From: a bacterium
Lineage (GTDB): Bacteria; Electryoneota; Electryoneia; Electryoneales; Electryoneaceae
Reading direction: 5' to 3'
DNA: 30,007 nucleotides
Assembly (NCBI GenBank): GCA_028278125.1
Contig: JANQEY010000026.1
Span: forward strand, 1 to 30,007
In this document: in pieces, positions 9,015 through 30,007 of the stretch
How the letters are laid out: every line of letters begins with the position of its first letter
Position numbering within the stretch: the stretch's first letter is position 1
Notes under the pieces: model-generated
The model's database searches: none
Seen by the model: only the letters and a program-made list of their open reading frames with translations
Told to the model about the DNA's origin: nothing
Program-made: the position numbers and the translations under genes

Positions 9015-10220
9015 ATGGGCTCAAGATTCGAAACTCTCGACCGGGATTTTAACTGGCGTACCGGTCAGGTTGATTGGCCGGTAACAACTGCAACCTCCCA
9101 GGGATTATCCGGTGTTATTGCCTGCGAGACCAAGGTGGCGTGGGTAAATCCCAATACCGGTGAACTTTCCTACCGGGGAATACCGATCCAGGACATTGCA
9201 GGTAACGCGTCATTCGAGGAGGTGGCATATCTCCTTGTAGAGGGAAAACACTGGCGCGACCACCCGGAAATATTCCAGTCATTTTGCCGACGTCTTCATC
9301 GTGTTCGCCAAATGCCGATTGAGGTGTTGCAGATCCTCGAACTACAATCCGGTGACACCCATCCCACACGGATGCTCCGTGCAGCAATTTCCGCACTGGG
9401 CTGTCATGATATAATCCCCAACGACGATATCAAGGAAAACCATCGCTGGGAAGATGTCTGGATGATCAGCCAGGTTGCAGCTCTCGTGGGACATATAACA
9501 CGTTTCAGGAAGGGAAGGAAACCCCTTATCTCCGACTATCGCCAGACCCTGGCCAAGGACATGCTCTACATGATCTCGCGGGAAAAACCAACCCGGGAAC
9601 AGGAAGACCTGTTGAATCTATTGTGGGTGCTTTTCGCAGATCATGGTTTGGATGCACCGGCATTTACAGGGATGATAGTAGCCAGCTCCCGTGCAAATCC
9701 CTATTACAACATTGTTGCAGGGTTAAGCGCATTGCGGGGTACGTTGTTGGGAGGGGCAGTAGAACGGATAATCCGGATGTTCCAGGGACTTCGTGATGCA
9801 AACGTTGCCAGGGCCTGGACAGAGGGTATGCTGGCAAAGGGATATATAATTCCGGGTTTCGGTCACCGAATGTTTCGCCAGCAGGATCCGAGAGTGGATA
9901 TAATTAAAAAGGTGATTCCAACATACGCTATTACCGAGGAACAGAAGTTGTCGCTCGAGGTGCTGGAGACTATTGAAGAAACGGCATCTGCGATTCTCAA
10001 TCCGAAAGATGTATACGTAAACATCTATTTTTATTCGGCACTACTGTTTCACTACCTGGGAATAGAACCGGAAATGGCACCATGTTTTTACGCAATCGGA
10101 AGGATGGCCGGCCTGGTTGCGCGTGTCCGTGAATACTTAGCTGATAATCGACTGATTCATCCCAGGGTAAAATATACCGGTGAGCTGAATAAAAAATATT
10201 TAACGTTGGAAGAACGATGA
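9015..10220 (+). CDS. Citrate-synthase-family protein, paralogue 1 (catalytic Asp replaced by Tyr)
   Basis: A 401-residue citrate synthase-like protein. The family condenses oxaloacetate and acetyl-CoA (or close analogues). The first catalytic His region is present as FADHGLDA (H210) and the second as GFGHRMF..DPR (H284). The third motif, normally N-V-D-F-Y-S, reads N-I-Y-F-Y-S (336-341), so the catalytic Asp is Tyr338. The oxaloacetate-loop His of GPLHGGA is Leu (GTLLGGA, 242-248). The C-terminal R-P before the Y-x-G tail is H-P. Ordinary citrate synthase activity is therefore doubtful. Length is near normal. The gene ends in ATGA, its TGA overlapping the ATG of paralogue 2, so the two are translated together. 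The ATG 9015 start has a poor ribosome binding site. Confidence 0.85.
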   Translation: MGSRFETLDRDFNWRTGQVDWPVTTATSQGLSGVIACETKVAWVNPNTGELSYRGIPIQDIAGNASFEEVAYLLVEGKHWRDHPEIFQSFCRRLHRVRQMPIEVLQILELQSGDTHPTRMLRAAISALGCHDIIPNDDIKENHRWEDVWMISQVAALVGHITRFRKGRKPLISDYRQTLAKDMLYMISREKPTREQEDLLNLLWVLFADHGLDAPAFTGMIVASSRANPYYNIVAGLSALRGTLLGGAVERIIRMFQGLRDANVARAWTEGMLAKGYIIPGFGHRMFRQQDPRVDIIKKVIPTYAITEEQKLSLEVLETIEETASAILNPKDVYVNIYFYSALLFHYLGIEPEMAPCFYAIGRMAGLVARVREYLADNRLIHPRVKYTGELNKKYLTLEER

Positions 10221-11335
10221 AGCCATTTCAAAAAGAAATGGAACAGACATATAATCGTGGCATGGAAAGCCTGTTTGTCGGTGAAACTACCATCGGGAAA
10301 ATCGAAGGAAAAGAGGGTAAACTCTGGTATCGAGGTTTCGACGCTGAAGAACTGGCAAAAGTCAGTAATTTTGAGGAAGTATCATACCTCCTTATTCATG
10401 GCGATCTTCCGACAAAATCTCAGTATGACAGGTGGTGTAAAGAATTTGAGCTCTGGCACGAACCACCGGATTCGTCGCTGAAAGTTCTTGAATATCTTCC
10501 GACCGAAACACACGCGTTAAAACTATACCGAACGATGCTGACAATTGCCGCTTGCCATATCCCTGAAGGTGAAAACACCCGTATAGAGGCACAATGGCGA
10601 CGGCCGGCATTAATCCTTGCCTGGTGCTCAACAATTGCAGCGGCAGCTATCTGCCATATACTGGGGAAAGAAGGAAAACCATACAACCCGGATAAATCAT
10701 TTTCTGCAAACTTTCTCGCTCAGGCTTTGGGTAAAGAACCGACGGATGATGAGCTAAAAGCATTTGATGTCAGCCTGATTGTTCAGGCTGAAGACGGAGT
10801 CCATGCCGCGGCGCTGGCAGCGTTGACTGTTATTTCGACAAGGGCGGATCTTGGCAGCGCTGTACTTGCCGGGATGGGAGCCCTCTCGGGCGACCTGCAG
10901 GGTGGAGCCAGCCAGTTTGCTTTCCAAAACCTGGTTCAGCTCAAATCGGTTGAAGAGGCACGGGAATGGGTAGATCAGAAACTGAATGAGCGATACAGGT
11001 TCCCCGGCTTCGGTCACCGGAATTATAAAACTTTTGATCCCCGTGTTCGAATCCTTGAACCTTTCGCTGAAAAACTTCTGACAAAAAATGGCGATCCCCA
11101 TCTCTGGGATATCTACCGGGTAATAAAAGAGAAGGTGGAATCGACACTTGGTAGCAAAGGTGTCTATCTCAACGTAGACGGTATTACGGGGCTGATTTAC
11201 CACGCACTCGGTTTCCCACCTGAGTCTTTTTCAATCCCTTTCGCTTTGGCAATTCAAACCGGCTGGATGGCGCATTGCCTTGAGTATCTGTCCGAAGGTA
11301 AAATGTTTGAGCCGGGCGCGATCTATACCGGTTAA
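10217..11335 (+). CDS. Citrate-synthase-family protein, paralogue 2 (first catalytic His replaced by Asp)
   Basis: A 372-residue citrate synthase-like protein. The second catalytic His is kept in FPGFGHRNY (H267) and the catalytic Asp in LNVDGITG (D321). The first motif, normally A-D-H-E-x-N-A-S-T, reads A-E-D-G-V-H-A-A-A (191-199), so the catalytic His is Asp193. GPLHGGA reads GDLQGGA (225-231), and the terminal R-P is E-P, though GWMAH (349-353) is kept. This is the reverse of the loss pattern in paralogue 1. The start overlaps the previous stop by four bases (ATGA), which suggests equimolar production and possibly a heteromer. In well-studied citrate synthases the catalytic triad sits within one subunit, so simple complementation between subunits is not a given. 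Alternatives are a different acyl-CoA substrate or a regulatory partner. Confidence 0.85.
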   Translation: MKPFQKEMEQTYNRGMESLFVGETTIGKIEGKEGKLWYRGFDAEELAKVSNFEEVSYLLIHGDLPTKSQYDRWCKEFELWHEPPDSSLKVLEYLPTETHALKLYRTMLTIAACHIPEGENTRIEAQWRRPALILAWCSTIAAAAICHILGKEGKPYNPDKSFSANFLAQALGKEPTDDELKAFDVSLIVQAEDGVHAAALAALTVISTRADLGSAVLAGMGALSGDLQGGASQFAFQNLVQLKSVEEAREWVDQKLNERYRFPGFGHRNYKTFDPRVRILEPFAEKLLTKNGDPHLWDIYRVIKEKVESTLGSKGVYLNVDGITGLIYHALGFPPESFSIPFALAIQTGWMAHCLEYLSEGKMFEPGAIYTG

Positions 11336-15605: not shown

Positions 15606-16571
15606 TCACAAGGCAGTGATCGGCATGTAGATCTCGAACTGGTGCTTGTGTTCCGGGTGCTCCTTGGGATCGTTGAGGTAGAGCTCAAAAGGTGGACGGT
15701 CGTCCGGGGTGTATCCACTTTCAGGCAGCCAGCTGCCGTACAACGCTTTCCATGCCAGGGGATACTCATCTGCATTGACCTCAAACTTGCCGATGGCATA
15801 TTTACCACCGCTAACACTCATTTTACCCACTTCTCCACTTACCTCGGTGTCTTCGGGAACGGTCATACAGACATCGATCCGAAGCTTGTCGTCATCCGTG
15901 AGAGATGGATCATCGTGGTAAATGGTCATGAACCTGGTTGTTTCGGGATTAAACAGGTTCTTGGGACCAGCCCATTTCATAAGGTTTGTAAACAGGCGGT
16001 CGAATAATTGTTCATCACCCCTGTAGGGTCCAACGTGACGGATATAAGCTACTGTCATATCCTTGACATCCTCTACACGGACGTCGACATCAAATCCTGG
16101 TTTTTCTACCATTTTTAATCTCCATGTAAATTGACCTGTGACGGGATCAATTTGCAGAGAAACAGACCCGTTTTCTTCACTCATATTGCCGTCCGTTTGA
16201 TGAATCTTGCTATTTTTCTCCATCTTGGCGAGTTTGCGGATGTCGATTGAATTGCGCCAGTCGGACGCGCTTACTCCGAACCGGTCCTTGAATGCTCTTG
16301 CAAATACTGCCGATGAGGTGAATCCAAGTCCAAAAGCTATGTCTGTAATTGAAGAGTTTTTACTGACGACCAGTTTAAAGGCAGCCTTCTCCAGCCTTAA
16401 ACGGAGAATAAACTGGTAGAGAGATTCGTTCATCACCGCGGAAAATATCCTATGGAAATGGTAACGGGAGAAGTTTGCAATCTCTGCCACCTCATCCAGT
16501 GTAAGTTGTTTATCGAGGTTCGTACTGATGTAATCAATTACACGGTTGACTCGTTTTATATGTTCACTCAT
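15606..16571 (-). CDS. AraC-family transcription regulator with GyrI-like effector domain
   Basis: A 321-residue regulator. The N-terminal ~110 residues are an AraC-type double helix-turn-helix: LTLDEVAEIANFSRYHFHRIF forms the first HTH (about 23-43), and ITDIAFGLGFTSSAVFARAFKDRFGVS the second (about 75-101). After a linker, residues 150-321 form a GyrI/SbmC-like small-molecule-binding domain (starting VRVEDVKDMTVAYIRHVGPY, ending PEHKHQFEIYMPI), as in Rob and related multidrug-sensing regulators. It probably senses a hydrophobic or cationic compound. The ATG is preceded by GGGGGAAT. The natural targets could not be identified; its nearest neighbours are a convergent methyltransferase and, upstream, the divergent metal importer. 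Confidence 0.9.
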   Translation of the reverse strand: MSEHIKRVNRVIDYISTNLDKQLTLDEVAEIANFSRYHFHRIFSAVMNESLYQFILRLRLEKAAFKLVVSKNSSITDIAFGLGFTSSAVFARAFKDRFGVSASDWRNSIDIRKLAKMEKNSKIHQTDGNMSEENGSVSLQIDPVTGQFTWRLKMVEKPGFDVDVRVEDVKDMTVAYIRHVGPYRGDEQLFDRLFTNLMKWAGPKNLFNPETTRFMTIYHDDPSLTDDDKLRIDVCMTVPEDTEVSGEVGKMSVSGGKYAIGKFEVNADEYPLAWKALYGSWLPESGYTPDDRPPFELYLNDPKEHPEHKHQFEIYMPITAL

Positions 16572-16905: not shown

Positions 16906-17847
16906 ATGAAGTTTTTCAAAATAGCAGCAGTTTTACTGATAGCAGGATTAATTGCCGGTTGTGGACAAGGCTCTAAGAAAGCTAAGCAGGATTTGTCTAA
17001 AAGAACAATCAAGGTGGTCGCGACCACAGGTATGATAGGCGATGCCGTTTCGAATGTTGGAGGAGACCGTGTATCGGTGACAACTCTCATGGGGCCTGGA
17101 ATTGATCCTCATTTGTACAAGGCGAGCGAGGGTGATGTCCGTGTGATGTCTAACGCGGATATAATATTTTACAACGGTATCCATCTTGAAGGTAAGGTGA
17201 CCGAGGTTCTGGAGAATATGCACGGAATGGGAATCGCCACTCATGCCGTAGCCGAATCTGTTCCGGAAGAGAAACTGGTTGAAACTGAAGGAGCGGCTGA
17301 TCCTCATGTCTGGTTCGATATTGGGCTATGGAAATACGTGATTAAGTCAATTGAAGAATCATTATCTCAACTCGATCCCGGCCATTCAGATACCTACAAA
17401 TCACAATCTGAATCGTATCTGAAAGAGCTGGATGAACTGCAAACGTATGTCATAGAGAAAGCGCAATCCATTCCAGAAAACAACAGGGTTTTGATTACAG
17501 CACATGATGCATTCGCATATTTCGGCAATGCTTATGGTTTTGAGGTACATGGTCTCCAGGGTGTCAGTACGGCAACCGAGGCAGGAACCGCAGATGTTCA
17601 GAACCTGGCGAAATTTATTGCGGAACGGAAGATACCGGCAATATTTGTTGAATCTTCGATCCCGGTGCGAACCCTTGAGGCGGTTCAGGCTGCTGTCGAG
17701 TCACGTAACTTCCAGGTCAATATCGGCGGAGAACTGTTCAGTGACGCAATGGGCGATCCGGGTACCCCGGAAGGTAAATATTTGGGGATGTTCCTTCATA
17801 ATATAGATACAATCACCAATGCTCTATCAGGTGACAGTGGCAAATAA
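16906..17847 (+). CDS. troA: Metal ABC importer substrate-binding lipoprotein (TroA/ZnuA family)
   Basis: A 313-residue lipoprotein with lipobox IAGC (C19). The cluster A-I binding-protein fold is clear. The four metal ligands of TroA-type proteins are at GIDPHLY (H69), DPHVWFD (H134), TAHDAF (H200) and LFSDAMG (D280), nearly the numbering of Treponema TroA (68, 133, 199, 279). It lacks the His-rich loop of ZnuA, favouring Mn, Fe or Zn uptake of the TroA/MntC type without settling which. The ATG follows AAGGAGATAGC. It is the first gene of a tight four-gene operon: the ATPase starts 18 bp on. A DtxR/MntR-like site overlaps its promoter. Confidence 0.9.
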   Translation: MKFFKIAAVLLIAGLIAGCGQGSKKAKQDLSKRTIKVVATTGMIGDAVSNVGGDRVSVTTLMGPGIDPHLYKASEGDVRVMSNADIIFYNGIHLEGKVTEVLENMHGMGIATHAVAESVPEEKLVETEGAADPHVWFDIGLWKYVIKSIEESLSQLDPGHSDTYKSQSESYLKELDELQTYVIEKAQSIPENNRVLITAHDAFAYFGNAYGFEVHGLQGVSTATEAGTADVQNLAKFIAERKIPAIFVESSIPVRTLEAVQAAVESRNFQVNIGGELFSDAMGDPGTPEGKYLGMFLHNIDTITNALSGDSGK

Positions 17848-17865
17848 CCCTGAAGAAAGTTCACC

Positions 17866-18693
17866 ATGAATACGGAGAATATTGCAACGGATACAAACGC
17901 AATCGAAGTGATGGATCTGACCGTTGCCTACCGTGACAAGCCGGTACTCTGGGATATAGACCTGGAGGTTCCCCAGGGAGTCTTGATGGCTGTAGTCGGA
18001 CCAAACGGAGCAGGCAAAACAACGTTGTTAAAATCCATACTTGGCCTGGTTAAACCGGCTGCCGGGCATGTACGGATTTTGAACAAGCCGTATGATTCGG
18101 TCAGACAGAAGGTTGGTTATGTTCCCCAGCGCGGAAGTGTTGATTGGGATTTCCCGACAACTGTTTTGGACGTTGTGATGATGGGCAGTTACGGAAAACT
18201 CGGTTGGGTGCGACGGCCGGGTAAAGCTGAAAGAGAACTTGCTTCATCTACCCTTGAACGCGTAGGAATGCAGGATTTTGCCGGTCGTCAGATCAGCCAG
18301 CTTTCTGGAGGTCAACAGCAACGGGTTTTCCTTGCCAGGGCAATACTCCAGGACGCGCAGGTTTATTTCATGGATGAACCCTTCCAGGGAGTAGACGCTA
18401 CCACTGAAAGAGCGATCATCGAAATACTGCAGGATTTCCGTGCCAAGGGCAAAACAGTCCTTGTAGTCCATCATGACCTTCAGACAGTTCCTGAATATTT
18501 TGACTGGGTGACTCTGCTGAATGTCCGTCGTATTGCCAGCGGACCTGTTGATGAAGTTTTCACAGAAACAAATCTCAGGCTGGCATACGGGGGGAGGGTG
18601 GCATTTCTTACAGACCATCATCCCGGAGAACCCCTGGCCGAGCATGCTTCAGAGACTAATGATCAGTCTAAGCAGGACGAGGGGATTGAATAA
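17866..18693 (+). CDS. troB: Metal ABC importer ATP-binding subunit
   Basis: A 275-residue ABC ATPase. Walker A is GPNGAGKTT (45-53), the signature is [15 protein letters not shown], and Walker B is [12 protein letters not shown], followed by the switch His in VVHHDL. It belongs to the manganese/zinc (TroB/MntB/ZnuC) group by gene context and by the C-terminal tail. It powers import of the metal carried by TroA through the two downstream permeases. Its TAA stop shares one base with the ATG of the first permease (TAATG), indicating coupled translation. Confidence 0.93.
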
Positions 18694-19823
18694 TGCTCGC
18701 AATGTTTTTTCAAGATTATACCTTGCGTACAGTTGCCCTTGGATCTGCGTTACTGGGAATAGTCAGCGGTGTCCTGGGATGTTATGCGATGCTGCGAAAA
18801 CAGAGCCTTCTTGGTGACGCCATCAGTCATGCGGCATTGCCGGGAATAGCCCTGGCGTTTCTTTTCACACAGTCTAAATCAACAATAATATTGTTGATCG
18901 GGGCTGCCGCTGCCGGACTGATCGCCAATCTTAAAATCATCTCAATTGTACGTAATACAAGGATCAAGGAGGACAGCGTCCTGGGAATAGTACTCTCAGT
19001 TTTCTTCGGTTTCGGACTGGTTCTCCTGACATTTATCCAGAGAATGCCGACAGCCACCCAGGCTGGACTGGATAAATTCCTCTTCGGGCAAGCCGCGACC
19101 TTGATGGAACGTGACCTGGTAATAATGGCAATACTTGGAATTCCAACATTACTGTTGGTTGGTATATTCTGGAAAGAATTCAAACTTTTAAGTTTTGACC
19201 CGGATTACGGCGCGACTTTGGGATATCCAATCAGAACCATAGAAATCCTCCTGACGACACTTATAGTAATTGCAATTGTTATAGGATTACAGACAGTTGG
19301 TGTTGTCCTGATGAGCGCGATGATCATCGCGCCTGCTGCCGCAGCTCGTCAATGGACTGACAGGATGGGATGGATGATACTCCTTGCTGCACTGTTTGGT
19401 GCCTTATCCGGGGTGTCGGGTTCGATGTTGTCATCAGTAATACCTAAACTGCCTACAGGACCAACCATTGTTGTGATGATAAGTGCGATTGTCGCAATCA
19501 GTCTGCTTTTTGCGCCAAACAGGGGGATTGTCTGGAACTGGCTGAAGATGAAACGTAACCGGCGGAAATTACAAATCAACGCTATCCTTGAGGATCTGTT
19601 CCTGCTGGCAAAGCAACATGACAATCCTTCACATGCTCATTCCATTGCAACCTTAAGAGCCATGGCTTCGGGTCATGGAGGTGTAGACAGAAGCCTTGAG
19701 GAATTGGAGGCTCGTGGATATGCGAAAAAAACAGTGGGTTGGTCACTGACACCTGCCGGATACAAAGAAGCTGTGAAAATGGCTGAAACCATGGGAGTGC
19801 GCGATGGTAACAGCACAATTTGA
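18693..19823 (+). CDS. troC: Metal ABC importer permease 1 with C-terminal winged-helix-like tail
   Basis: A 376-residue ABC-3 family permease. Residues 1-285 hold the usual eight or so membrane helices, including the DAISHAALPGIALAFLF block and the LMSAMIIAPAAAARQWTDRM block typical of the family. Ordinary members stop near 285-300; here ~90 extra cytoplasmic residues (286-376) form a likely winged helix-turn-helix: NAILEDLFLLAK, then a recognition-type GVDRSLEELEARGYAKK helix and a WSLTPAGYKEA wing. Similar domains are the DNA-binding parts of DtxR-type metal regulators. It overlaps the next permease gene by 20 bp. The domain may sense metal or regulate the transporter; its function is inferred. 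Confidence 0.88.
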   Translation: MLAMFFQDYTLRTVALGSALLGIVSGVLGCYAMLRKQSLLGDAISHAALPGIALAFLFTQSKSTIILLIGAAAAGLIANLKIISIVRNTRIKEDSVLGIVLSVFFGFGLVLLTFIQRMPTATQAGLDKFLFGQAATLMERDLVIMAILGIPTLLLVGIFWKEFKLLSFDPDYGATLGYPIRTIEILLTTLIVIAIVIGLQTVGVVLMSAMIIAPAAAARQWTDRMGWMILLAALFGALSGVSGSMLSSVIPKLPTGPTIVVMISAIVAISLLFAPNRGIVWNWLKMKRNRRKLQINAILEDLFLLAKQHDNPSHAHSIATLRAMASGHGGVDRSLEELEARGYAKKTVGWSLTPAGYKEAVKMAETMGVRDGNSTI

Positions 19824-20913
19824 GATCCAGGCAATCGGTGTTGTCGTAGCCGTCGCTTGCGCGCTTCCGGGTGTATTCCTGGTATTGAGACGGATGGCGA
19901 TGATGTCCGACGCGATCAGTCATTCAATCCTCCTGGGTATTGTACTCGCGTTTTTCCTCGTAAAAGATCTTGCATCGCCGTGGTTAATTGTTGGTGCAGC
20001 TATAACCGGTGTTGTAACAGTCAGCCTGTCCGAAATCCTCCTGAAAACAAGGCTGGTAAAACAGGATGTTTCAATTGGATTGGCATTTCCACTTCTCTTT
20101 TCGCTTGGTGTAATTCTTATCAGCAGATACAGCGGTAATGTTCACCTCGATATTGATATGGTTCTGCTGGGTGAACTGGCTTTCGCGCCATTCGACAGGT
20201 TTATTGCAAATGGTATCGACCTTGGTCCACGAAGTTTATGGGTGATGAGTGGAATCCTTCTGTTGAACGTCGTGTTCATTGCAGTATTCTTTAAAGAGTT
20301 AAAAATAGCCACGTTTGACGCAGGTCTTGCAGCTTCTCTCGGTTTTCTGCCTGGGGTTATCCATTACGGTTTGATGTCTGTTGTTTCTGTTACAGCAGTC
20401 GGAGCATTTGACGCTGTAGGTTCAATCCTGGTCGTGGCTCTGATGATTGTCCCCCCGGCGACGGCCTACCTGCTTACAGACCGGTTATTGATAATGATTG
20501 CTCTCAGTGCGTTTTTCGGAGCATTGAGCGCAATTTCCGGTTACTGGATGGCACATCTACTTGACGCTTCGATAGCTGGAGCTATGGCAACAATGGCTGG
20601 TGTGTTTTTTGGATTGACCTATCTGATGGCGCCAAATAGAGGTTTGCTGGCAGTCGCCCAACGTCGTAGAGACCAGAAATGGGAGTTTGCCAGGAAGATG
20701 CTGACCGTCCATATGTACCAGCATGAAAACACTGAGGATGAGGAAACGGAGTGTAGCTTACCTCATCTACAGGATCATTTTATGTGGACTCAACATTTTG
20801 CCCAGACAACGGTTAAATCACTGGTACGTGATAAACTTATAGAAATCGAAAACGGAATATTAAAACTGACAAAAAACGGTCGTGAAGTGGCCAGGGAAGC
20901 GATTGTGCAATAA
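19804..20913 (+). CDS. troD: Metal ABC importer permease 2 with C-terminal winged-helix-like tail
   Basis: A 369-residue ABC-3 permease, paralogous to the preceding one. It has the SDAISHSILLGIVLAFFLV and VALMIVPPATAYLLTDRLL blocks. After LTYLMAPNRGLLA there is an ~83-residue cytoplasmic extension (about 287-369): ARKMLTVHMYQHE, then TVKSLVRDKLIEIENGILKLTKNGREVAREAI, a helix-turn-wing pattern like the first permease's tail but diverged from it. Together the two would form a heterodimeric channel, as TroC and TroD do. ATG 19804 lies inside the end of permease 1. A strong terminator follows. Confidence 0.88.
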   Translation: MVTAQFEIQAIGVVVAVACALPGVFLVLRRMAMMSDAISHSILLGIVLAFFLVKDLASPWLIVGAAITGVVTVSLSEILLKTRLVKQDVSIGLAFPLLFSLGVILISRYSGNVHLDIDMVLLGELAFAPFDRFIANGIDLGPRSLWVMSGILLLNVVFIAVFFKELKIATFDAGLAASLGFLPGVIHYGLMSVVSVTAVGAFDAVGSILVVALMIVPPATAYLLTDRLLIMIALSAFFGALSAISGYWMAHLLDASIAGAMATMAGVFFGLTYLMAPNRGLLAVAQRRRDQKWEFARKMLTVHMYQHENTEDEETECSLPHLQDHFMWTQHFAQTTVKSLVRDKLIEIENGILKLTKNGREVAREAIVQ

Positions 20914-24750: not shown

Positions 24751-24789
24751 TAAAAACGCCCATCAACCAAATGGAGATGGGCGTTAACT
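24751..24789. terminator. Bidirectional terminator between pirin and the convergent secreted protein
   Basis: AACGCCCATC (24755-24764) pairs exactly with GATGGGCGTT (24776-24785), flanked by AAAATAAA on the left and AACTTTG on the right. Confidence 0.8.
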
Positions 24790-24804: not shown

Positions 24805-26832
24805 TTATTTCAACAATACCATACGGCGCAGTTCAGAATAACTTCCCTGGGCTCCTTCAGCTTCCATTTTGTAGAAATAAATTCCGGAAGCAAATCCCTG
24901 GGCATCCCATGATACAGTATGATATCCTGCCTGTTTGTCGGCTGAAAGCAACCTGGTTACTTCACGACCGTTAAGGTCAAAGACTGTTATAGTTACATCT
25001 GCCTGCCCCGGCAGCGAGAAAGCAATATCAGTCGTTGGATTGAATGGATTCGGATAATTCTGCTCTAGTGAATAGGAAGCGGGAATCACATTCTGCTGAT
25101 CGTGATCTACGGAGGTTAAGTCGAATGCGTAGTTAATCCAGTTAACCATCAACTGGTTACGACTGTCTACATCCGCGATCGCTTCAAACGGGAATCCAAG
25201 AAGCAGGGTTTTATATGTGTCAGTTTCGTTACGAACGCCTGCACGACGTACCATCGAATACCACAAACTTACTTCACCACCACTGATCGTTATTGAGGTT
25301 GGTACACCCCTGTTATCAGCGCCGTCTCCACCGCCGATGTCAAAGGATAGTCCGTTACCGATTGGATCGCCTTCTTCACCCTCAGCATGTATTCCTGCGG
25401 GATATTCCTGCTGGTATGCTGCGCCCATCATTTCTATCAGTGTTGAATTCGCCATATTTGCGGGTGCGTTACTGCCTGTAATCCAAAGGTTACCGCCGGC
25501 TTCAAGGTAGCTGACGAGAGCTGCTACATCTTCTTCCGTCATGATACCTTCTCCACCGGTGAACCAGATTGCGGCTTCAGGCACGGCAGAAGCAAGATCC
25601 ATCGCGTCAAGCATGTACATGGAATTATCCCAGACTGAATAGTTAGAAGCTCCTGCTGTTATTACAGCGTCCAGGCTCTGGGTATAATATTCAGAGTACA
25701 TGCCGCCGGGGACATTGTTTACAAGTAAAACATCATCACAGATGCCCGTATAGAAGGTTAAACTGGCTTCATAACCTGGAATGTGCTCAGAACTGAAAGT
25801 GAATGTAAAAGTACCATCATAAACATCCATATTGTCAGTAGTCTGAACAGTAAATGTACTTGTGTAAGTTTCATCGACACCCAGGTTAATGGTACCGTTC
25901 TCTGTCATATCTCCATCAGGAGTAGTATAGACATAGGTCCATCCCTCAGGTAAATCGCTGGTTACCTCAACAGATATTGCGTTGTCTTGTGGAATAAAAT
26001 TCTCAAGATCAAACTCGAATACTGCCGATTCGCCTGCTCTTGTGAGATGCGCAAAGTGTTGCGTTGTAGCAAAGGTCAGATTGTCGAATGCAGCTTTCTC
26101 TGCGTTGATAACTTCTTCAGTGTTATCATTTTGTACAAAAGCAATGGCAGTGAGATTCTCGGGAAGAATTTCAAAAGTGTCCTGACCGTCCAATAATATG
26201 ATTGGATAATCGAAGGTGAAAGTATAAACTTCGGTCGAATTCTCGTCTATTTCGAAATCAACACCTTCATGATCGGGTGAATAGGTTAGCAAGTCATTGT
26301 GAAAATCATTCTGTCCGTTGTTTCCACTATACCAGCCGGTAACTCCATTGGAAAGCAGGGCACACCTTAATTTGTTGTTACCGGTAACAGCTTCATCAGC
26401 ACTGTTAACGATAACTAAAACAATTGCTTCTCCATCACCTTCATAGGAGAAAACCTGTAATCCAATTGGACTCTCAACATCAATCCGGTTATTGTACTGT
26501 GTGGCAAGCCCGTTAAAATTTCCTGGATACTGTTCAACCAATCCGTCAACAAAGCAGCTTGGCCAATGGGGTACAGGGTAATAACTAACCCGTCCGTCGT
26601 GATCATCTGAATATGACGACCAGGGATCAAAATCATCATGCGTTACAAACGCGACAATATTACTCGCATAAGGTTCTGTTGACATAAAATTTGCAAACGT
26701 CGGCGCCGCCGTCGCACACGGGCCTCACCAGTATGCCCAGAATTCTTCAAACATTACCTTCCTCTGGAATCCCATTGCCGAACTTGCAATAAGTCCGAAT
26801 GCGACGATTCCAAAAACTAATTTCCTCAACAT
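24805..26832 (-). CDS. Candidate selenoprotein: secreted Omp28/thioredoxin-like protein with W-U-G-P-C site and C-terminal sorting domain
   Basis: A 675-residue gene when the TGA at 26725-26727 is read as selenocysteine (residue 36). The ATG at 26830-26832 has AAGGAG seven bases upstream. A signal peptide (1-21) is followed at once by VMFEEFWAYW-U-GPC (26-39), where thioredoxin-like and Omp28-type proteins have WCGPC. The frame is intact on both sides. A redox-fold region follows, including DDFDPW and the YPVPHWPSCFVDG segment expected of Omp28-type proteins. Further on are a beta-sandwich region, a ThuA/GATase-like domain (about 360-570) and the NYPNPFNPTTDI...SGIYFYKME...RRMVLLK sorting domain in the last ~90 residues. 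A GC-rich hairpin begins 11 nt after the TGA. An ordinary caller would start at Met50 (26685) and lose the leader. Alternatives are a nonsense mutation or a read error. The enzymes for selenocysteine are not in the window. Confidence 0.72.
26698..26714 (-). promoter_or_regulatory. Candidate bacterial SECIS hairpin
   Basis: Read on the minus strand this is CGACGGCGGCGCCGACG. CG and CGGC pair with GCCG and CG, separated by one A-A mismatch, around a GGC loop 18-20 nt after the TGA. Bacterial SECIS elements usually have a G at the start of the apical loop about 16-37 nt from the UGA, which this meets. The GC-only third positions here contrast with the rest of the gene, as expected if RNA structure constrains the codons. 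Confidence 0.55.
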
Positions 26833-26906
26833 AATAAAACTCCTTAATGATACGAATATTCGATCAATGTTTTACTATCCGGCTCTTCTGAATTTCAAAC
26901 TTTAAT

Positions 26907-29900
26907 TTATTTAACAAGAATCATCTTCTTCATATCTGTAAATTTATCTGCACGTACCTGGTAGAAATAGATACCACTACCCAAAAGTGAGGCATCAAAC
27001 TCAACATTGTGGTATCCGGGACTGACGTTTTCATTGACCAGTACGGCTACCTGCTGTCCCATGAGGTTATAAACGGTCAGCAGTACATCCTGCGCTTCAA
27101 CAAGGTCATAACGGATATGGGTTGTCGGGTTAAATGGGTTCGGGTAATTTTGATGCAACGCGTATTTTGTGGGCATATCAACTACTTCTTCAACGCCAGT
27201 TTCTTCAATAAACTGAACAACCACGTCGATAGGCATTAATCCTGCCCACGGCTCACCTGTAAATAACAGTTCGGCAAAAGCGACGTCACCATCCTGGACA
27301 GCCGGTGGATCACCAACCCAGGCTTCAGTAATATCAGCGCTGATAGTCAGTGTGATCATTGCTTCGGGAGCCAGTGTGCCGGCTACAGGGCCATCTATAA
27401 ACAGCCAGTCCTGAATCGGATCTTCCCAGGGAACTTCGAGGACATTGAGTGCTGCGTTCCAGTTGAGATCCGCACATCCGATGTTTTCAAAATCGATATT
27501 CACGGACGCAGTTGAATCAATTTCACCACCAAACTTAATGTCAATGATAATTGGATCCGTAATTGCTGAGCCTTCTGGGTAAGTCATGATGACATCAAGT
27601 GTTACAACATCCTCAGGTATTAAATCGAAGGCTCCGTATGTCTCAGCATAATAGTTTTCAAGCTCAAAACGGATATCATAGGTGATTACCGGAATATCCG
27701 GAATAGAATACATTCCATCTATATCTGTTGTCGCCATTAGTTCATCGTTCAGGTAAACCTCGACGCCTTCAATTGGTTCACCACCCTCTTCACATTCCAC
27801 AACAGTACCCTCAAGAGTGCCAAACTCTGGTGGTACAAGGAACCAGTTCATGAAGTTCTCAAAGAAATCTTCACGAGTATTACCCTCTTCACCATCAACC
27901 AGGTTTCCTACCTCGAAGCTGAATGTTGCGGTTTTGTACAAGAGGCCCTCAAGGTCCCAGTAAATCACACCCGCGGCAAAGTCATCTGCTGGATTTATAA
28001 AAACTACAGTCGCGTCATCTTCCGCTGTATAATCGTCAACCCAGCTGTTCTCACCACCATAGGTCATGTCCATTCCTTCGGTGATAGTACCATCAACACC
28101 TTCGACGGATGCCAGATCTGAACCGCCATCGGCGACATCAGCCAGGCGGAAATAGGGCATCAGGTTTTCTGGTACAACCCATCCGAAAGTATCGCCACCC
28201 TCATGGTATACATTTCCACCGTTGTCCAGGTATTCCACAAGCAGGGTTTCGTCCTCTGAACCGGTCTCTATCGCATAGAAATTCGGATACATTCCCGTAC
28301 AGACAAACACACCTTGATAGTCAGAGAGTTCATAATCAGCTAATGAGTTTGCTTCAATATAGGTATAGCCTAGATCGCCCAGGATCTCCATCACGTTTTC
28401 ACCTGAGTCCGGAGTCGGATCCGGATTATAAATCAACAAATCCACATTCGGATCAGCGTAGTCAACCATTACCGTATTTGTGGGATTTGATTCCCCTTCA
28501 TCCCAGTCAGCAGTTACATAATATTCATACTCACCATAATCTGGCAGAACGTCATCATAGGTTGTTTCGGTTGTTCGTCCAATTTCAGCGCCATCCCGAT
28601 AGACAACATATTCTATAAATTCATCAATTTCATTGTCATTCCGGCCAAAGCGTTCATATATACTGCAGCTACGGTTATTAACAATACGATCATAACGGAC
28701 ACGTGGATTTTCAATAACCGGGAGCGGGCTGCTGCAAAGTTCAGACATTTCAACGGGTTGAGCTTGAACGGGATTCGGATTCGGATTTCCAAATTGTGCC
28801 AGCATCTCTATTTCATCAGCTATACTGACCTGGTTGATCTCAAGCCTGTCTGTCAAATCGAGAGAAGAGTATGAACCATATATTACAGCACCATCAGCGT
28901 AAGTGTCATCAGTAAATGCAAATGTCTCAATGTCATTTATATAGAATGTAAAATCTGATCCATCAGCTACAACTGTAACCGTATTCCATGAACCAAGCCC
29001 TGTATTGATATCCGGACTTGCTGTCCAAGCCTGGATTACAGCCGCGCCATCAGGATCGAATCGGAAGATCGAATATGATCCACCAGGAGTGATGTTGAAC
29101 AGATAACCTGAAGTGGCATCGTTAGCAAACTCATCTCCCCTGATTATTAAACCAATACTGGAAGTTTCTGATCCTTCTGCACGTGATACTTCCCATTCAT
29201 ATATGCCATCTCCGAAAATGTCGCCATCATACTTGGCGCCCATCCAGTCATCAGTGCCTGCCCGATCACCAACAAGCATATTATCTGATACTTCCCATAC
29301 GCCTGCATCCGGATCAAAGAGGAAATCATCTGCTACTCCATCGGTGAAATCATCAATAAGCAGGTTTTCCGTAATTCCAATCCAGTTTAATGTTACTCCA
29401 CCCATACCGTCATGTACTGCACCAAGGTAGGAAGGATCGGGTGGTTCGTTATAAAAGAGAATTGCAAGCTCTTCGTATGGGTAATCCACAGGATCTACAT
29501 CAACGGACGCGGCGAGGCCAATGGTACCATCATCATTCTGGATACCGATGAGTTCATCAGTATAATTCATATCACTGAAGCTATGATACTGCATCAGGAT
29601 GTCACCATTAGGATAGAGAATGGTCTGGCACGTTACAATATTTGGATCACTATATTCGTAAATCCCGTCATATGATACAACAAAATTGCCGTCTTCATCT
29701 TCACCGTAATAGATTGTCCCGCCCTCTTCCGGATCCATATCCTGGGCGTAGAAGTTTATACTGTTGTAATAATCATCCTCTGGAAGATCACTTGGGAACC
29801 AATCATAACCTTCACCAAACGACAACAGACCGTTTGAGCCGATCCAGATTTCATCCCAGTCATTACCGTAAAAGTTAAATGTGAATGGAAGCGCGAATGG

Positions 29901-30007
29901 CCCCTGGTAGTCATCATCGCCCATATCAGTAATGGCGGTGCCTGTCTCGCTGATATCGATCCAATCATACATTGGACCAGCATCTTCATCACTATCGATA
30001 TAATGAT
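26907..30007 (-). CDS. Large secreted multidomain protein with C-terminal sorting domain (5' end outside window)
   Basis: The frame is open to the window end, giving at least 1,032 residues; the true start is outside. Visible parts in order: a beta-sandwich with FTFNFYGNDWDEIWIGSNGLLSFG near the start; a LamG/ConA-like region (about 220-400); a fibronectin-III-like region (VVYRDGAEI...YYVTADWDEG); a ThuA/GATase-like domain (DLLIYNPDPT...NVYHEGGD); a carboxypeptidase-regulatory-like domain (about 760-830, GTLEGTVVE...); an Ig-like domain; and the NYPNPFNPTTHI...SGIYFYQVR...KKMILVK sorting domain. No catalytic residues stand out. It lies 74 bp upstream of the selenoprotein candidate on the same strand without an evident terminator, so the two may be co-transcribed. 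Confidence 0.83.
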   Translation of the reverse strand, partial: HYIDSDEDAGPMYDWIDISETGTAITDMGDDDYQGPFALPFTFNFYGNDWDEIWIGSNGLLSFGEGYDWFPSDLPEDDYYNSINFYAQDMDPEEGGTIYYGEDEDGNFVVSYDGIYEYSDPNIVTCQTILYPNGDILMQYHSFSDMNYTDELIGIQNDDGTIGLAASVDVDPVDYPYEELAILFYNEPPDPSYLGAVHDGMGGVTLNWIGITENLLIDDFTDGVADDFLFDPDAGVWEVSDNMLVGDRAGTDDWMGAKYDGDIFGDGIYEWEVSRAEGSETSSIGLIIRGDEFANDATSGYLFNITPGGSYSIFRFDPDGAAVIQAWTASPDINTGLGSWNTVTVVADGSDFTFYINDIETFAFTDDTYADGAVIYGSYSSLDLTDRLEINQVSIADEIEMLAQFGNPNPNPVQAQPVEMSELCSSPLPVIENPRVRYDRIVNNRSCSIYERFGRNDNEIDEFIEYVVYRDGAEIGRTTETTYDDVLPDYGEYEYYVTADWDEGESNPTNTVMVDYADPNVDLLIYNPDPTPDSGENVMEILGDLGYTYIEANSLADYELSDYQGVFVCTGMYPNFYAIETGSEDETLLVEYLDNGGNVYHEGGDTFGWVVPENLMPYFRLADVADGGSDLASVEGVDGTITEGMDMTYGGENSWVDDYTAEDDATVVFINPADDFAAGVIYWDLEGLLYKTATFSFEVGNLVDGEEGNTREDFFENFMNWFLVPPEFGTLEGTVVECEEGGEPIEGVEVYLNDELMATTDIDGMYSIPDIPVITYDIRFELENYYAETYGAFDLIPEDVVTLDVIMTYPEGSAITDPIIIDIKFGGEIDSTASVNIDFENIGCADLNWNAALNVLEVPWEDPIQDWLFIDGPVAGTLAPEAMITLTISADITEAWVGDPPAVQDGDVAFAELLFTGEPWAGLMPIDVVVQFIEETGVEEVVDMPTKYALHQNYPNPFNPTTHIRYDLVEAQDVLLTVYNLMGQQVAVLVNENVSPGYHNVEFDASLLGSGIYFYQVRADKFTDMKKMILVK

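Follow-up and report, generated by a model that had tools for sequence, protein, structure and literature searches.

A predicted Omp28-type selenoprotein with a type IX sorting domain and its Sec- and Cys-containing relatives

The gene and its in-frame TGA codon

In the window, by which we mean the whole 30,007-nt stretch of DNA analysed, the minus-strand frame 26832-24805 contains on translation one internal stop, a TGA at codon 36 (26727-26725), and ends with TAA. The gene and its flanks comprise the following features.

24805..26832, minus strand: predicted selenoprotein gene, 675 aa with Sec36, stop codon TAA (translated frame)
26725..26727, minus strand: TGA codon 36, predicted selenocysteine, residue 1 of the UGPC motif (translation and homologue column)
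26716..26718, minus strand: TGT codon of Cys39, predicted resolving cysteine of UxxC (translation)
26840..26845, minus strand: ribosome binding site AAGGAG, 7 nt 5' of the ATG at 26832 (by eye)
26767..26832, minus strand: probable signal peptide, residues 1-22 (hydrophobic N-terminus by eye; model helix 3-19)
24755..24785, minus strand: intrinsic terminator hairpin, then a T-run (fold z -5.7; 0/200 shuffles)

The terminator is absent from a separate terminator scan, probably owing to its loop and bulge, and Rfam and tRNA scans of the whole 30,007-nt window gave no matches.

The context of the TGA, FEEFWAYW-U-GPCATAAP, is that of a thioredoxin active site (W-U-GPC). The original prediction had described an in-frame TGA at the first Cys of a thioredoxin motif, in a frame that reaches an ATG with a ribosome binding site and a signal peptide, and translation and, by eye, the ribosome binding site and a hydrophobic N-terminus bear this out. 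It had also put the TGA at the resolving position, which has to be corrected: in a thioredoxin CxxC motif, the first cysteine is the attacking residue and the second the resolving one, here Cys39 (26718-26716).

The TGA could be a real stop, either because the gene is decaying through a nonsense mutation or because translation starts downstream at 26685. The program-made ORF list starts the gene at this position, 49 codons downstream of the ATG at 26832, and the database gene call does the same, the protein deposited for the contig (P0002, 626 aa) being likewise clipped at the TGA. Furthermore, Omp28-like genes are numerous paralogues in the related genomes, and one of them could decay. However, the TGA is preceded by a ribosome binding site and a signal sequence, the remainder of the 675-aa frame is open, a covarying hairpin accompanies the codon, and 24 other distinct genes, from 13 genomes, carry a stop codon at the same column that is always TGA and not TAA or TAG (see below). 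We therefore regard a real stop as very improbable.

Code reassignment or general read-through would also open the frame, since a tRNA reading TGA as another amino acid could yield the same product. However, TGA is the ordinary stop of the window ORFs 9015-10220, 15606-16571 and 18693-19823, and it also ends ordinary genes in relatives (e.g., L012, L013 and L042), so that the original prediction was right to set reassignment aside. This explanation is also opposed by the alternation of TGA with Cys at the redox column, by the hairpin and by the Sec genes of the relatives, and we give it hardly any weight.

Homologues, SECIS-type hairpin and decoding genes

The closest homologue, P0003 (67% identity), is known here from the protein alone. 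Its first residue, a Met, lies two positions past the expected CxxC, as it would in a TGA gene clipped by gene prediction. A scan of the species genomes led to two loci, L001 (the gene also handled as L014), which has the Cys form, and L002, where the match is confined to the C-terminal part. The codon census was then based on 39 genomes from the phylum of L001, together with the window. An alignment search with the N-terminal domain gave matches in 38 of these 39 genomes, where homologues with exactly one TGA occur alongside homologues without any. Sequences too fragmentary to include the motif column (L100, L102 and G011:C115) and weak short matches (E about 1e-6 and above) were excluded.

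The motif column in the resulting 81 rows, including the window, holds TGA 26 times, TGC 36 times, TGT 17 times, and GAC and AGC once each. Counting L093 and L094, two nearly identical contig ends, as one, this corresponds to 25 distinct genes with TGA, 53 with TGC or TGT and two with Asp or Ser, so that 78 of the 80 distinct genes have one of the codons TGA, TGC and TGT. The alignment of homologues called for by the original prediction thus shows TGA and Cys codons sharing one column. The 24 distinct TGA genes other than that of the window are distributed over 13 genomes. All but one of the 25 TGA genes have UxxC, L092 having UxxxC. The residues N-terminal to the window TGA align with both Sec and Cys homologues; together with the 24 further distinct genes that carry TGA at this column, this makes the placement of the TGA more than chance. 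In L013 and L053, where Asp or Ser replaces the first Cys/Sec, redox activity may have been lost, judging from the sequence. Among the 81 matches listed in a protein search with full-length members, most of them nameless, none was named a selenoprotein.

Downstream of the window TGA, comparative folding located one further feature.

26693..26719, minus strand: SECIS-type hairpin, loop GGC at +18 to +20 from the TGA (26707-26705), core helix 26714-26708 / 26704-26698 with one A.A mismatch

According to the available text of PMC13188914, the bSECIS model has a loop of 3-9 nt with a G within loop positions 1-2, an upper stem of 4-16 bp, a spacing of 16-37 nt and an MFE of at most -7.5. The window hairpin agrees with each of the constraints quoted there: its 3-nt loop starts with GG 17 nt from the TGA, a 4-bp upper stem is followed by the mismatch and 3 bp more (6 of 7 core pairs), and its energy is -9.9 kcal/mol if the closing pair is imposed. 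It differs from the bSECIS element by the single A.A mismatch in the core helix.

In nine TGA genes, nt 11-17 after the TGA pair with nt 21-27 around a 3-nt G(G/U)C loop, forming 6 or 7 of 7 pairs, while the best of 27 Cys genes reaches 5 of 7 in the same register. Of the alignment cells of these nine genes, 95.2% are paired, compared with 20.6-58.7% in slid controls, a percentage inflated by the choice of genes for fitting the register; the weight therefore rests on the compensatory changes, which were observed at all seven pairs. None of 500 shuffles scored as high on any of five measures. Outside the 39-genome group, one of 20 TGA genes (L149:2551-4548) forms all seven pairs. A second SECIS design, with a 6-nt loop at nt 19-24 that starts with GA, was found in L029, L036, L046, L085, L087, L088 and L093.

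Compared with synonymous recodings, the hairpin z averages -1.74 in TGA genes (n = 25) and -0.08 in Cys genes (n = 53; p 3e-5), with values of -2 or below in 14 of 25 and 4 of 53, respectively. The window hairpin itself has a z of -2.28 (2/100). Nine of the 25 TGA genes, including L039, L088 and L093, lie above -1.9, so a clear hairpin is not universal under a simple scan. Plain RNAfold around and after the window TGA, over 46 and 91 nt, gave no excess stability (z +0.93 and +0.59), and the window hairpin is thus convincing only through the comparison across homologues. The comparison also bears on a sequencing or assembly error, in which TGC or TGT would have been read as TGA. Such an error is made extremely unlikely by the recurrence of TGA at one column across separate genome assemblies and by a hairpin that accompanies TGA far more than Cys.

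Genes for selenocysteine decoding scored over the curated cut-offs in most of the 39 related genomes (selB in 33, selA in 34, selD in 34 and tRNA-Sec in 32). Matches of selB below cut-off were not counted, nor were RF01852 matches below cut-off, present in each of the 39 genomes and each of the 14 controls, taken as selC. All 13 genomes with TGA members possess selA, selB and selD, and 12 of them tRNA-Sec (absent from G025). In G001, G004 and G011, none of the four Sec genes is over the cut-off, and their four census members are all Cys forms. Each of the remaining 23 genomes passes the cut-off for at least one Sec gene, and none yielded a TGA member; gene presence alone therefore does not predict TGA. 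Of 35 selD matches that pass the cut-off, 33 have one TGA each and are thus predicted selenoproteins as well.

The citrate synthase encoded in the window shares 71% identity with its G020 counterpart. The predicted selenoprotein pairs with L012 of G022 (support 93) in the domain tree, in a clade of eight Sec, two Cys and one Asp members. From these two observations, the organism of the window appears to belong to the same group as the 39 genomes or to a near one.

Taken together, the alternation of TGA and Cys at one column, the covarying SECIS-type hairpin and the Sec-decoding genes in relatives with TGA copies make selenocysteine the best reading of the TGA at 26727-26725. This reading, already put forward in the original prediction, is strongly supported at the level of sequence comparison.

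A further observation concerns eight genomes, G012-G017, G039 and G040 (L169-L180, L183-L192 and L198-L201), which carry two selenocysteine-decoding sets. Two selA genes over the cut-off are present in 8/8 and two selB genes in 7/8; the paired selB copies are 34-41% identical to each other, the second copy of G014 being a fragment. G012-G017 have two different tRNA-Sec (TCA) genes, one of which adjoins selD. Bin contamination is made less likely by the two SelB types of G012, G013 and G015-G017, each of which falls into a clade of its own with good support. Of the two SECIS designs, G013, G014, G016 and G017, genomes with the second decoding set, have the one with the 6-nt GA.. loop, and G019, G020, G022 and G023, with one selB each, have the 3-nt GGC/GUC loop (L012, L031-L035, L041 and L043) that the window also shows. 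Each SelB may thus have its own SECIS type.

Fold, export and known families

Structure prediction and profile searches divide the protein into three recognizable parts.

26473..26763, minus strand: thioredoxin-fold domain spanning approximately residues 24-120, with helix 37-51 starting right after Sec (model, fold matches; Pfam Thioredoxin 22.2 bits, cut-off 23.5)
26089..26472, minus strand: beta-sandwich of the Omp28/HBP35 fold, about residues 121-248 (model, fold matches; Pfam Omp28 28.7 bits at 83-248, cut-off 34.9)
24850..25056, minus strand: T9SS type A sorting domain, residues 593-661 (PF18962 38.2 bits, cut-off 27; TIGR04183 37.8 bits, cut-off 23)

The AF2 model of residues 1-286 has a mean pLDDT of 87. 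In this model, residue 36 lies between strand 26-33 and helix 37-51, the position of CxxC or UxxC, at a helix start after a strand, that marks the thioredoxin fold. The best Foldseek match in the PDB is HBP35 (5y1a; E 1.1e-13, TMq 0.64, rmsd 10.2, 16% identity), which a sequence profile also finds (E 3.2e-7), followed by 2axo and then by the Omp28 domain 2r2c, with thioredoxins also in the list.

HBP35 of Porphyromonas gingivalis is the most similar known protein and shares the two-domain fold, the N-terminal thioredoxin motif and the C-terminal sorting domain. The available text of PMC2907840 describes a surface form with this sorting domain, and a thioredoxin activity that is lost upon change of both active-site cysteines; a dependence of HBP35 on the Por secretion system is reported in PMC3120885. 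In contrast to the CxxC of HBP35, the window protein has UxxC, and the two are only 16% identical in the structural alignment. The domain fold also matches the P. gingivalis Omp28 lipoprotein (PF11551; 2r2c). Unlike in Omp28, UxxC replaces CxxC, and the window protein scores 28.7 bits against PF11551, below the gathering threshold of 34.9.

TIGR04183 is over its cut-off in the window protein and in 14 TGA homologues of the group. The scan took in 15 of the group's 24, the rest lying on short stretches, and the fifteenth, L039, falls just under the cut-off of 23 with 22.3. Among TGA proteins from outside the group, 9 of 19 scanned are over the cut-off. The PorU sortase, the part of the T9SS searched, is over its cut-off in 37 of the 39 related genomes. 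The sorting domain and the presence of PorU in relatives make surface export by the T9SS likely, and the protein is probably exported, as the original prediction had proposed. The gene upstream (26907-30005, minus strand, open at the window end), 74 nt from the selenoprotein gene, has a T9SS tail as well (TIGR04183 41.5 bits).

As for novelty, the original prediction had called such a protein possibly undescribed, which does not hold for its kind. PMC2398784 described GOS_C in 2008 from 74 sequences containing Sec, with UxxC and a Trx-like fold, and the NCBIfam model NF045500, "Omp28-related selenoprotein", is tabled as GOS_C with UxxC in PMC13188914; Omp28-related selenoproteins were thus already known. 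As far as these texts show, the window protein resembles NF045500/GOS_C as a bacterial Omp28/Trx-like protein with a predicted Sec in UxxC and existing Cys homologues. It might then be a plain member of the described family, with nothing new about it. This has in its favour the shared motif and fold (PMC2398784, PMC13188914) and an NF045500 match with E 2.7e-5 over residues 20-252. However, this match reaches only 23.7 bits with a cut-off of 200, and 34 other TGA proteins scanned reach 66.3 bits at the highest or have no match listed. These scores are no better than that of P0005, an ordinary Cys homologue with the annotation Chitinophagales (61.9 bits), which is level with the TGA proteins, and no protein over the NF045500 cut-off was found in the 39 related genomes. 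Plain membership is therefore unlikely, though it deserves more weight than the other alternatives.

Instead, we regard the window protein as an Omp28-type selenoprotein with a T9SS tail outside NF045500, set apart by the model score; a difference from GOS_C in the tail is not claimed. The new part would be an exported, many-branched and often T9SS-tailed clan of Sec-containing Omp28 proteins beyond NF045500, a curated model that does not reach the branch holding the window protein. Further Omp28-type or T9SS selenoproteins were not found in print in the open-access literature, as far as its text was accessible.

As a whole, the locus very probably encodes a selenoprotein, which would be exported by the T9SS and act as a thiol-disulfide oxidoreductase. 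From established biology, SelB with Sec-tRNA would read the TGA as selenocysteine, and the signal peptide would carry the protein across the inner membrane. The type IX system would then take it across the outer membrane, where PorU would remove the sorting domain, leaving the protein on the cell surface or outside. By analogy with HBP35, the Trx/Omp28-fold domain would serve as the oxidoreductase, with U-x-x-C in place of C-x-x-C. Selenocysteine, a costly residue, is usually associated with enzymes of the cytoplasm or periplasm. If the family places it on T9SS cargo, selenium-based redox chemistry would take place at or beyond the outer membrane. Gene prediction that clips the gene at the TGA, as in P0002, loses both the signal peptide and the active site.

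Evolution of the family and neighbouring genes

A tree of 79 members requires at least nine Sec/Cys changes, seven of which are forced by well-supported branches. The search was extended to 386 genomes, relatives of G020 that include the 39. Of the 23 one-TGA rows listed outside the 39, 22 were read, on 20 stretches of DNA, with C/U-x-x-C accepted up to four residues from the motif column; the TGA lies at this column in 20 genes of 11 genomes, while L152 and L156 have Cys at this column and the TGA elsewhere. These genes were picked for having a TGA, and their numbers are no measure of frequency. The most Sec copies found in one genome is four (G435). In the control phylum of G002 (Ignavibacteriales), 122 of 296 genomes had a match, with no TGA row among the matches listed.

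We lean slightly towards the view that the family forms a large and largely unannotated clan of T9SS-exported cell-surface selenoproteins, with several paralogues per genome, repeated Sec/Cys swaps, members in several bacterial lineages and two SECIS designs that track one or two complete decoding sets.

Two other groups of genes in the window were noted by eye. At 9015-11335 (plus strand), two citrate-synthase-like genes overlap by 4 nt, and a neighbouring pair of citrate-synthase matches also occurs in G006, G012 and G020. The region 16906-20913 (plus strand) holds genes of a metal-type ABC transporter, namely a binding protein, an ATPase and two permeases; the C-termini of both permeases appear to resemble winged-helix regulators.
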